A DNA stretch of 64,000 nucleotides from Rhabdothermincola salaria (GTDB taxonomy: Bacteria; Actinomycetota; Acidimicrobiia; Acidimicrobiales; Acidimicrobilacustridaceae): NCBI RefSeq assembly GCF_021246445.1, contig NZ_JAJQXW010000005.1, positions 1 to 64,000 on the forward strand. Direction: 5' to 3'. The position numbers were made by a program, and so were the translations under genes. How positions within the stretch are numbered: the stretch's first letter is position 1; each line of letters starts with the position of its first letter. Shown here piece after piece: positions 41,064 to 44,744 of the stretch. The notes below the pieces were generated by a model. That model worked only from the letters and a program-made list of their open reading frames with translations, was not told the origin of the DNA and searched no databases.

Positions 41064-41092
41064 TGGACATAGTCAGACAAGCTTCCTAGGGT
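41064..41092 (+). promoter_or_regulatory. Leaderless-type promoter of the marR gene
   Basis: TGGACA (41064-41069), a 17-base spacer and TAGGGT (41087-41092), 6 bases before ATG 41099. The -35 matches TTGACA at 5 of 6 positions. Transcription would start at or next to the ATG. The same TGGACA box occurs before the DUF222 gene at 52849. Confidence 0.6.
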
Positions 41093-41098
41093 GGCGCC

Positions 41099-41632
41099 AT
41101 GGGCCGGACGAGCAGCGATGTGGTCGGGGCCGAGCAGGCCCTCGAGCGGCTCTTCCGCCTCACCGTGAGCCGCCGCATGTACAGCCGCCAGTCCGCGGCC
41201 GTGGGCGCGGTCGTCACCCGCGCCGGCTACGCCGTGCTGCGCAGCGTCGACCAGGCGGGCGAGCTCACCATGACCGAGCTGGCCCGCGAGTGCTCCATGG
41301 ACCCGGCGGCGGCCGGCCGTCAGGTCCGTTCCCTCACCGAGGACGGCCTCGTCGAGCGCCGCTCGGGGGCCGACGACGCCCGGGTGACCGTGGTGCGCCT
41401 CACCCCCGAGGGCCGCGACGTCTACCGCCGCATCGTGGCCGTGCGCACCGCCCACCTCGACGAGGTGCTGTCGGGCTGGAGCGCCGAGGACCGCACTGCG
41501 CTCACCACCCTCGTCGATCGCCTCGTCGACGACCTCAAGGCGGTGCCGTTCCGGCCCGCCCCCACCGCCACCCGAGCCACGCCAGCCACCCCAGCCACCC
41601 CAGCCACCCCAGCCACCGAGGAGCGCCCATGA
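41099..41632 (+). CDS. MarR family transcriptional regulator
   Basis: 177 residues. The winged helix is at about 25-125, with MTELARECSMDPAAAGRQVR (recognition region) and VERRSGADDARVTVVRLTPE (wing). The C-terminal 20 residues are an Ala-Thr-Pro repeat encoded by 9-base tandem DNA repeats. The stop overlaps the DegT-like gene start (ATGA), so the regulator heads a three-gene operon and may control it in response to a small ligand. Confidence 0.9.
   Translation: MGRTSSDVVGAEQALERLFRLTVSRRMYSRQSAAVGAVVTRAGYAVLRSVDQAGELTMTELARECSMDPAAAGRQVRSLTEDGLVERRSGADDARVTVVRLTPEGRDVYRRIVAVRTAHLDEVLSGWSAEDRTALTTLVDRLVDDLKAVPFRPAPTATRATPATPATPATPATEERP
41581..41616 (+). repeat. 9-base tandem repeat at the 3' end of the marR gene
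   Basis: Four copies of a CCCAGCCAC-type unit (first one beginning G) encode repeated Ala-Thr-Pro. The unit is a multiple of three, so copy-number change would lengthen or shorten the tail without shifting frame. Confidence 0.85.
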
Positions 41633-42864
41633 GCCGCATCCAGTCCGACCGCCGCATCGACTACGCCGGGTCGGTGCACGACGAGCGCGAGATCGACGCG
41701 GTCGTCGCGGTCCTGCGCGGGGGCCCCACCGCCATGCGCATCGGCCGCAACGTCAAGGCCATGGAGCAACGCGTCGCCGAGCTGTTCGGCAAGCGCCGGG
41801 GGGTCATGTGCAACTCGGGGAGCTCGGCGCTCTACCTCGCCGTCGAGGTCCTCGGTCTCGAACCGGGCGACGAGATCCTCACCTCGGCCGTCACCTTCTC
41901 CACCGACATCGCGCCCATGATCAGGGCCGGCCTGGTGCCGGTGTTCGTCGACGTCACCCCCGACACCTTCCAGATCGACGTCGACGCCATCGAGGCGATG
42001 ATCGGGCCGCGCACCAAGGCCATCCTCGCCCCCAACCTCATCGGCAACGCCCCCGACTGGGATCGCATCCGCGAGATCGCCGACCGTCACGGGCTCAAGG
42101 TGATCGAGGACTCCTGCGACGCCCTGGGCCTCACCCTCCGGGGCACCCCCACCGGCACCCGGGCCGACATCAGCCTCACCAGCTTCGCCCTCAGCCACAT
42201 CATCACCGCGGCCGGCACCGGAGGCATGGTCTGCTTCGACGACGACGACATGGCCGACAAGGCGCTGCTGCTGCGGCGTTGGGGCCGGCGCAGCGAGGTC
42301 CAGCTGTTCGGGTCCACGAAGGGGGTCGAGCGCAGCTTCTTCAGCACCATCGACGACGGCCTCGAGTACGACAACCTCTTCATCTTCGACGAGGTCGGTT
42401 GGAACTTCGAGCCCTCCGAGCTGTCGGCCGCCTTCGGTCTCGTCCAGCTCGACAAGCTCGCCGACAACCTGGTCCGTCGCCAGCAGAACTTCGAGATCAC
42501 CGGGTCGTACTTCGCGCGGTACCCGCACCTGTTCACCATGCCTCGCCTCACCGAGGGCGTGGAGACGGGCTGGCACATGTTCCCGGCGCTGATCGAGCCC
42601 GACTCCGGCATCCGCCGCAGCGAGCTGCAGCAGTGGATGGAGCGCAACGGGGTGGACACCCGCATGGTCTGGACGGGCAACGCCACCCGCCAGCCTGCGT
42701 TCCGGGACAAGCCGCACCGGGCCCCCGAAGGGGGCCTGCCCAACGCCGATCGGGTCATGGAGTGGGGGATCATCCTGCCCAACAACCACTCCATGGACGA
42801 CGACGACTGCCACTACATGGGCCAGACCCTCGAGGGCTTCCTGGCCGAGAAGGGACTCATCTGA
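41629..42864 (+). CDS. DegT/DnrJ/EryC1 family enzyme with His in place of the PLP Lys
   Basis: 411 residues. The fold I aminotransferase landmarks are MCNSGSSALYLAVEVLGLEP, VDVTPDTFQID and VIEDSCDALG (the Asp that contacts the pyridine N). At the internal aldimine site, family members read SF..xK; here it is TSFALSHIITAAGTGGM, with His190 replacing Lys. That substitution defines the sugar 3-dehydrases ColD and RfbH/E1, which use PMP and dehydrate instead of transaminating. The RFLFGST-loop and overall length agree. Activity on a nucleotide 4-keto-6-deoxyhexose is an inference. It overlaps marR upstream and the SDR downstream. Confidence 0.88.
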   Translation: MSRIQSDRRIDYAGSVHDEREIDAVVAVLRGGPTAMRIGRNVKAMEQRVAELFGKRRGVMCNSGSSALYLAVEVLGLEPGDEILTSAVTFSTDIAPMIRAGLVPVFVDVTPDTFQIDVDAIEAMIGPRTKAILAPNLIGNAPDWDRIREIADRHGLKVIEDSCDALGLTLRGTPTGTRADISLTSFALSHIITAAGTGGMVCFDDDDMADKALLLRRWGRRSEVQLFGSTKGVERSFFSTIDDGLEYDNLFIFDEVGWNFEPSELSAAFGLVQLDKLADNLVRRQQNFEITGSYFARYPHLFTMPRLTEGVETGWHMFPALIEPDSGIRRSELQQWMERNGVDTRMVWTGNATRQPAFRDKPHRAPEGGLPNADRVMEWGIILPNNHSMDDDDCHYMGQTLEGFLAEKGLI

Positions 42865-43685
42865 TGGCTGGACGATTCGCAGGACGGCGCGCCGTGGTCA
42901 CCGGCTCGAGCCGGGGCATCGGCGCCGGCATCGCCGAGCGCCTGGCCGCCGAAGGAGCGGACCTGGTGCTCACCGCCCGCACGCTCGACAAGCACGACCA
43001 CCTGCCCGGCAGCCTCAACGACACGCGCGCTCGCCTCGAGAAGTACGGCACCGCGGTCTCGGTGGTCGTCGCCGACCTCACCGACCCCCAGGACCGCCTC
43101 CGGGTGATCCCCGAGGCGGTCGAGGCCCTGGGCGGCCCGGTCGAGATCCTCGTCAACAACGCGGCGGCGTCGATCCAGGCGCCCTTGGCCGAGGTGTCGG
43201 TCAAGCGGCGCAACATCATGTTCGAGGTGAACGTCAACGCCCCGGTCGACCTGTCGCTGGCCGTCGTGCCCGACATGGTCGCCGCCGGTGAGGGCTGGAT
43301 CGTCAACCTGTCGAGCGGCAGCGCCCAGCTGTGGCCCGGTCCCGGCCACGAGCTCAGCGACTCGGCCGAGCGCATCATCGCCTACGGCGCCTCCAAGGCG
43401 GCTCTCAACCGGGTGAGCAACGGCATGGCGGCCACGCTCCACGGCACCGGGGTGCGGGTGAACACCGTGGAGCCGCGAGCTGCGGTGCTGAGCGAGGGCG
43501 CCGCCCAGCTGGTGGGCGACATCTTGACCCCCGACCAGATCGAGTCGATGGAGGAGATGGTGGAGGGGACCGTGGCCCTGTGCGACTGCCCGGCCGACGT
43601 GACCGGCCGGATCACGGTCAGCCTCGACCTGATCGAGGAGTGGGGTCTCACCGTCCACGGCCTCGACGGCAACGCGCTGTCCTGA
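42864..43685 (+). CDS. SDR family oxidoreductase in the DegT operon
   Basis: 273 residues. The cofactor motif VVTGSSRGIGAGIAERLAAE is at the start, LVNNAAASIQ near 95, and YGASKAALNR is the catalytic Tyr-x3-Lys. It is a classical SDR, not the extended type usual for nucleotide-sugar reductases. ATG overlaps the DegT-like gene stop (TGATG). Reduction of the product of that enzyme is possible but not shown. Confidence 0.9.
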   Translation: MAGRFAGRRAVVTGSSRGIGAGIAERLAAEGADLVLTARTLDKHDHLPGSLNDTRARLEKYGTAVSVVVADLTDPQDRLRVIPEAVEALGGPVEILVNNAAASIQAPLAEVSVKRRNIMFEVNVNAPVDLSLAVVPDMVAAGEGWIVNLSSGSAQLWPGPGHELSDSAERIIAYGASKAALNRVSNGMAATLHGTGVRVNTVEPRAAVLSEGAAQLVGDILTPDQIESMEEMVEGTVALCDCPADVTGRITVSLDLIEEWGLTVHGLDGNALS

Positions 43686-43763: not shown

Positions 43764-44744
43764 TCAGCGGGGTACGCGAGGAGCGCGGCGGCTGTACGTG
43801 GTGCTGATGGCCTCCACCCAGGCGTCCTCGTGGTGGGGGTCGTCGGGGGGCTCGACGTCGACGCCCCGCGCTCGCAGATCGGCCACGAACGTGTCGACGA
43901 CGCGCTCGAGGGTGAGGTCGTCGACGTGCTCCTCGCACCGGGCCAGCTCGTCGGCGTCGGCGTAGATCTCGCCCTTCCACGACACGGTGATGCGGACATC
44001 GGCATCGGTGGCGGTGTGGACGACCTCGTCGCCGTTGCGCATCTGCCAGCCACCCGCCACGCGGTGCAACGACGAGTCACGGGTGAGGCCCTCGATGAGG
44101 GCGTCGCCCTCGTCGCCCACCGGGGCCACCCCGTGGTAGGTGCGCTCGTTGTCGGACAGGACGGCCACGTTGCCGTACGGGGGCTCCACGACGGCCGACG
44201 GGGCGTCGGGACCGTCGGGCCAGTAGTGGAAGGCGCCGCCGGGCCCGTCGTAGAACCAGCTCACAGCGGTGGCCAGCCGCACCCGCCAGTGCTCGAACAA
44301 CCCGGAGCTCATCATCTGGTTGAGGAGCCAGACGGGGTGGTCGTCGCGGGTGAACCCCCGGAAGGCGGGGACGTCGGTGTGGGGGATGAACGGCACCGGG
44401 CCCGGCACCATCACGTTCACGTAGACGGTCTGGGGGCGAACGATGGCCTCCGCCCCGAACACGGCGTGGGCGCCCTCGACGAAGCGGGGGTTGCCCAGGA
44501 CGACGTCGGCGCCCGGGATCAGGGCCCGGCGACCGAGGGCGAAGTCGCGCCGGAACCACGGCGGCACGAACATGGTGGCCCCCTGGTTGCCGCCGGTGGC
44601 CCGCACCTCCTTCTCGGTGCCGGCGTAGCGGGCGATCGGCCACCACTCCTCGACCGCCCGGATGGTGTCGACCACCAGCGCCGGGTCGTCGTAGGCGGGC
44701 TCGAGGCGCACGGCGCTCGGCGTCGTGGTGGACGTGGCGGTCAT
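43764..44744 (-). CDS. Hypothetical protein with a 2OG-oxygenase-like HxD...H pattern
   Basis: 326 residues, not recognised as a named family. His122-Thr-Asp124 (FIPHTDVPAFRGF) and His204 (NERTYHGVAPVG) lie about 80 residues apart. This is the iron-facial-triad arrangement of Fe(II)/2-oxoglutarate dioxygenases, with FHYWPDGP between. The 2-oxoglutarate Arg cannot be assigned surely. ATG 44744 was preferred; the frame is open 147 codons further upstream on this strand, antisense to the LLM gene region. Convergent with the SDR gene. Confidence 0.72.
   Translation of the reverse strand: MTATSTTTPSAVRLEPAYDDPALVVDTIRAVEEWWPIARYAGTEKEVRATGGNQGATMFVPPWFRRDFALGRRALIPGADVVLGNPRFVEGAHAVFGAEAIVRPQTVYVNVMVPGPVPFIPHTDVPAFRGFTRDDHPVWLLNQMMSSGLFEHWRVRLATAVSWFYDGPGGAFHYWPDGPDAPSAVVEPPYGNVAVLSDNERTYHGVAPVGDEGDALIEGLTRDSSLHRVAGGWQMRNGDEVVHTATDADVRITVSWKGEIYADADELARCEEHVDDLTLERVVDTFVADLRARGVDVEPPDDPHHEDAWVEAISTTYSRRAPRVPR

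Follow-up and report, generated by a model that had tools for sequence, protein, structure and literature searches.

The closest described systems are DegT-fold dehydratases in which a histidine takes the place of the lysine that forms the Schiff base with PLP. E1, ColD and SpnQ, the characterised Lys-to-His dehydratases, are biosynthetic enzymes with nucleotide-sugar substrates, and all characterised His-type members named in a review act on nucleotide sugars (PMC8987622). E1/RfbH (PDB 3bcx and 3bb8) is the CDP-6-deoxy-L-threo-D-glycero-4-hexulose-3-dehydrase, and ColD (PDB 2gms and 3b8x) is the GDP-4-keto-6-deoxymannose 3-dehydratase, which carries His188, contains no iron-sulfur cluster and has its PMP regenerated by glutamate (PMC8987622). 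GenB3, from gentamicin dideoxygenation, sets an example of a PLP-dependent enzyme that deoxygenates a sugar carrying no nucleotide, although its substrates are 3'-phosphorylated aminoglycoside intermediates and it is likened to the enzyme considered here by description, not by sequence (PMC7941887).

The window, the whole 64,000-nucleotide stretch of DNA that was analysed, belongs to contig C5 of a 3.9-Mb genome and holds the following features:

41064..41092, forward strand: putative promoter/operator, TGGACA - 17 nt - TAGGGT with core GACATAGTC, likely a MarR operator, a role that we infer
41099..41632, forward strand: MarR-family regulator, 177 aa (PF01047, 3.8e-12)
41629..42864, forward strand: predicted DegT-fold PMP-dependent dehydratase, 411 aa, with His190 for Lys (PF01041, 2.7e-81)
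42864..43685, forward strand: classical SDR oxidoreductase, 273 aa, with TGSSRGIG, S and YGASK intact (PF00106, adh_short, 9.6e-35)

The three overlapping genes of the original prediction are real open reading frames, each with a Pfam match; the ends of marR and degT share an ATGA overlap and those of degT and the SDR gene a TGATG overlap. The regulator scores 46.3 bits on the Pfam winged-helix profile (cut-off 24.6), and the DegT protein scores 274 bits on DegT_DnrJ_EryC1 (PF01041, gathering score 19.8), placing it in a fold I family. The SDR carries all of the classical motifs TGxxxGxG, S and YxxxK, with the Tyr and Lys kept in 71/71 cluster members; it is a classical SDR rather than an enzyme of epimerase/RmlD type. 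No description of a MarR/DegT/SDR cassette was found in the literature searched, which does not prove that none exists. At its C-terminus the regulator has an ATPATPATPAT repeat run (window 41560-41618), located shortly 5' of the degT start.

The alignment of the DegT protein with E1, ColD and two Lys-type paralogues from the same genome places His190 (ISLTSFALSHIITAAG) in the Schiff-base Lys column, as had been predicted; this column holds His in E1, RfbH and ColD and Lys in the two paralogues. His190 is invariant in 114/114 aligned relatives, a set of clade rows in which some genomes are represented twice. No Lys takes the place of His190 in that column. Active-site columns fixed in common among the clade, E1 and ColD are S63-G64-S65-S66, D161, D164, S185, H190, G198-G199 and N259.

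E1 is the nearest solved relative by sequence (3bcx, 7e-57), with ColD lower in the list (8e-41), and E1 is also the best structural match (Z score 46.7; 367 residues at 33% identity) of an AlphaFold model with pLDDT 85.6, computed from an input of the window protein plus 29 relatives. Behind E1 rank sugar transaminases, GDP-perosamine synthase and ColD. The window protein shares with E1/RfbH the DegT fold, His for Lys and the TRQP motif, but it lies outside an rfbF-rfbG operon, lacks the 2Fe-2S cysteines and has Ala187 rather than Tyr. On the RfbH equivalog profile (NCBIfam NF011936) it scores 271.8 bits against a cut-off of 423, whereas a genuine RfbH encoded in the same genus reaches 644.9 bits. 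The E1 2Fe-2S cysteine set is absent from the window clade in the alignment: the ligand columns hold S222, L/V/P/I224, and K or a gap at 233, and column 163 is the sole one that is still Cys, whereas genuine RfbH proteins of the same order retain the ligand cysteines. Because the iron-sulfur ligands of E1 are missing, a hydrolytic cycle of the ColD type is predicted, and the DegT protein, as judged from its sequence, should be an iron-sulfur-free enzyme with ColD-like chemistry. It resembles ColD in the DegT fold, in His for Lys and, as predicted from the missing cysteines, in the absence of an iron-sulfur cluster. The two differ in that identity is only ~30%, and ColD lacks the TRQP motif and the WGR loop found in E1 and the window clade. 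The window enzyme is paired with a classical SDR, while the pathway partner of ColD is a C5-epimerase/reductase.

Nineteen alignment columns set the clade apart from E1/RfbH and from a CDP-sugar clade, among them Ala187, which lies three residues N-terminal of the catalytic His, and Trp348; these residues were compared in the alignment. Position 187 is Ala in 112/114 and Ser in 2/114 clade members, figures that exclude three RfbH rows which the residue-column script had counted within the clade and which gave a few deviating letters, and it is Tyr or Phe in E1, RfbH, ColD and the CDP-sugar clade. Position 348 is Trp in the clade and Phe in the comparison groups.

The phylogeny against ColD and RfbH, which the original prediction had proposed as a check, puts the window subfamily in its own supported clade (98/98), apart from E1 and ColD. 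His-type proteins split from the two Lys-type proteins (99/99), the CDP-sugar clade has support of 100/96, and E1 groups with ColD (98/99), but ColD forms a very long branch and its placement is unsure. A single clade for all relatives outside E1, ColD and the CDP-sugar group received 80 in a quick tree but only 32% of bootstraps in a careful one, and for that reason the clade claim is limited to the window subfamily; the tree does not settle the order of deep branches.

The leaderless promoter that had been proposed consists of TGGACA (41064-41069), a 17-nt gap and TAGGGT (41087-41092), followed by six bases to the marR ATG. A strict sigma-70 consensus scan of the region upstream of marR gave no match and was dropped as promoter evidence in favour of a phylogenetic footprint: upstream of the relatives' marR genes, a block composed of TTGACATAGTC, a variable stretch and TANNNT recurs, closely followed by a start codon, although the DNA around it is not conserved. 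The composite pattern TKGACATAGTC...TANNNT has one match per genome in 5/6 genomes searched, always before marR, and 0 matches in the control. The arms of the core GACATAGTC are GAC/GTC. This core overlaps the -35 box, the position expected of an autorepressor site, and is likely to be the MarR operator. MarR would sit on its own promoter and be released upon binding a pathway compound.

Genes near degT in the relatives, called with our own codon-usage script so that their starts are approximate, were compared across non-redundant loci at distances of ≤3 and ≥5 places. SDRs of the window type account for 20/291 of the nearer genes and 1/408 of the farther ones, MarR regulators for 16/291 and 2/408, and PF04909 proteins for 12/291 and 2/408. 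The SDR gene is the immediate downstream neighbour of degT in many relatives, MarR lies within three genes in 15/47 non-redundant loci, and all three partners occur at six loci in varying order; 23 of the 47 loci, counting those with enough flank, have none of the three nearby. Among 94 operon neighbours in relatives, 29 are SDRs, nine are PF04909 proteins and nine are MarR regulators, while glycosyltransferases and sugar nucleotidyltransferases are absent from the 25 leading families; weak Epimerase matches in this set are most simply cross-matches of SDRs. The genome context in relatives, also raised by the original prediction, is unlike that of polysaccharide biosynthesis and has a more degradative look.

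The PF04909 'amidohydrolase' is the third recurring partner of DegT, and its nearest solved relative is PtmU3, a dinuclear oxygenase (PMC10811679). In the window genome the closest relative of this partner (66%) is found at C1:826842-828020. The gene after it encodes another MarR regulator, which shares 48% identity with the degT-adjacent MarR of one relative (L127) and 39% with that of the window. Cupin_7, PF04909 and MarR genes stand in a row there (C1:825767-828609; L183:7768-10610), and cupins of this cluster also adjoin degT in three other loci (L113, L116 and L120). From this arrangement the cassette would seem to be divided in the window genome, with the C1 row probably its other half. 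In three loci (L062, L066 and L069), SDRs, a Gfo/Idh/MocA oxidoreductase and a xylose-isomerase-like gene lie downstream of degT, and in a Rhodococcus erythropolis relative an iol cluster with iolC-type genes is ~8 kb away; these contexts, though not general, hint at polyols or cyclitols.

The reading that we favour, to which we give about an even chance, is that the operon encodes an inducible, iron-sulfur-free PMP-dependent dehydratase and an SDR that act on a non-nucleotide hydroxyketone, and with that same confidence we see the operon as a module for catabolism or salvage under local control. The DegT protein would bind PLP without a Lys Schiff base and be charged to the PMP form by an amino donor, e.g. 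glutamate. PMP would then condense with the ketone of an alpha-hydroxyketone, His190 would take the C4' proton and the neighbouring hydroxyl would be expelled, and hydrolysis would, as with ColD, set free ammonia and a deoxyketone. The SDR might form the ketone beforehand or reduce the product, and the linked PF04909 enzyme may also process the substrate in some lineages. The most likely substrate class comprises free polyols, cyclitols and other hydroxylated rings encountered in catabolism. This reading draws on the invariant His190, on E1 and ColD standing closest among characterised enzymes in both sequence and fold, on the enrichment of the three partners near degT with no glycan families leading, on the clade-specific Ala/Ser187 and on the polyol-type neighbours of some relatives; CDP-glucose enzymes are also mostly missing from the carriers (CDP-glucose 4,6-dehydratase above cut-off in 1/30 carrier genomes, a cytidylyltransferase in 6/30). 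Against it stand the nucleotide-sugar substrates of every characterised His-type member (PMC8987622), the abundance of SDRs in these genomes and the loci without any partner. Of the dehydration and reduction pathway on another kind of substrate that had been put forward, the Lys-to-His dehydratase type, the SDR partner, the MarR control and the non-polysaccharide context hold up; the non-nucleotide substrate did not gain the same support.

Second to the non-nucleotide hydroxyketone reading, and clearly less probable though still a serious candidate, is a ColD-like nucleotide-sugar 3-dehydratase. Its substrate, most likely GDP-4-keto-6-deoxymannose, would be supplied by Gmd (GDP-mannose 4,6-dehydratase) encoded elsewhere. 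The SDR would reduce the 4-keto-3,6-dideoxy product on its way into a surface glycan, with MarR as the regulator. The closest characterised enzymes have this activity, and most carriers should have GDP-4-keto-6-deoxymannose at their disposal: Gmd is present in 28/30 carrier genomes, and the window genome has gmd and a GDP-fucose-synthase-like gene elsewhere. Gmd is, however, as general in the order (133/148, regardless of degT), and since it is equally common there its presence is uninformative either way; we rejected the co-occurrence as evidence for a GDP sugar. The classical type of the SDR, the glycan genes' absence from the leading operon-neighbour families and the clade-specific changes next to the catalytic His all argue against this explanation. 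The claim that no nucleotide-sugar synthesis genes lie nearby is correct both for the window and for the leading families of the relatives' operon neighbours. rfbF and rfbG are found neither in the window nor beside its orthologues, and they do stand beside the genuine RfbH found in the same genus (G001:C17).

Further weight on the nucleotide-sugar side comes from alphaproteobacterial cousins (L165-L169: Leisingera, Roseibium, Sinorhizobium meliloti pSymB, Ensifer and Palleronia), whose degT genes directly follow rfbF-rfbG, a placement judged partly by eye. These proteins are ~50% identical to the window DegT and share His for Lys, the lack of the E1 cysteines and an SFxxSH...GNGGM core, and each is apparently an iron-sulfur-free CDP-4-keto-6-deoxyglucose 3-dehydratase. 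They differ in their CDP-sugar biosynthetic context, in forming a separate supported clade, and in having Tyr187, Phe348 and Thr93 where the window clade has Ala, Trp and Asp. In several of these loci a SAM methyltransferase and a reductase come after the His-type DegT.

An aminotransferase or other PLP enzyme working without Lys, e.g. a slow ketone transaminase, is unlikely: the DegT fold would allow it and SpnQ transaminates somewhat without its reductase, but ColD and E1 show no transaminase activity in reductase-free conditions (PMC8987622), and His at the Lys site, a mark of dehydratases, is invariant in the clade, for which reason a plain aminotransferase was not preferred. A non-catalytic DegT-fold protein, such as a sensor paired with MarR, is more improbable still, given that the active-site columns common to E1 and ColD stay fixed and that the gene is tightly paired with an intact SDR, even though the lost Schiff-base Lys, taken by itself, would be consistent with such a protein. 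An E1/SpnQ-like reductive 3-dehydrase needing an iron-sulfur cluster and an external reductase is the least credible and was rejected on the missing ligand cysteines, notwithstanding that E1 is the best sequence and fold match.

The three-gene operon is conserved within a family of environmental bacteria, and its enzyme probably represents an undescribed branch of a known group. That it is a further iron-sulfur-free His-type PMP dehydratase branch with a non-nucleotide substrate, used for inducible degradation in Acidimicrobiia, other Actinomycetota and Myxococcota, we put at a little short of an even chance. If so, a catabolic branch acting on free substrates would widen the natural range of PMP chemistry, a radical-free and iron-free deoxygenation tool would be gained, and the retention of the gene in most sampled genomes of a small-genome genus of that family would be explained. 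The identity of the inducer recognised by the predicted regulator-operator pair would point to the substrate.

DegT matches at E ≤ 1e-60 were found in 38/148 related genomes, three of the weakest being true RfbH, and they cover most genomes of that small-genome genus (g12, about 1.8-2.6 Mb), whose assemblies are incomplete, so that little can be read into an absence. In a wider search the gene turned up in Acidimicrobiia, in other Actinomycetota (Yinghuangia, Embleya) and in Myxococcota/Deltaproteobacteria. The window genome itself has a second His-type DegT, 56% identical, at C2:282010-283203 (L008:9993-11201), in a context without a MarR or SDR partner. Two other copies, one with an in-frame TGA (G014:C273:2675-3877) and one split into two ORFs (L119), may reflect decay or assembly error. 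Downstream of the SDR gene in the window, a convergent 327-aa gene on the reverse strand (43764-44744) had no match in Pfam and NCBIfam searches, and its homologues are found near degT in several genomes.
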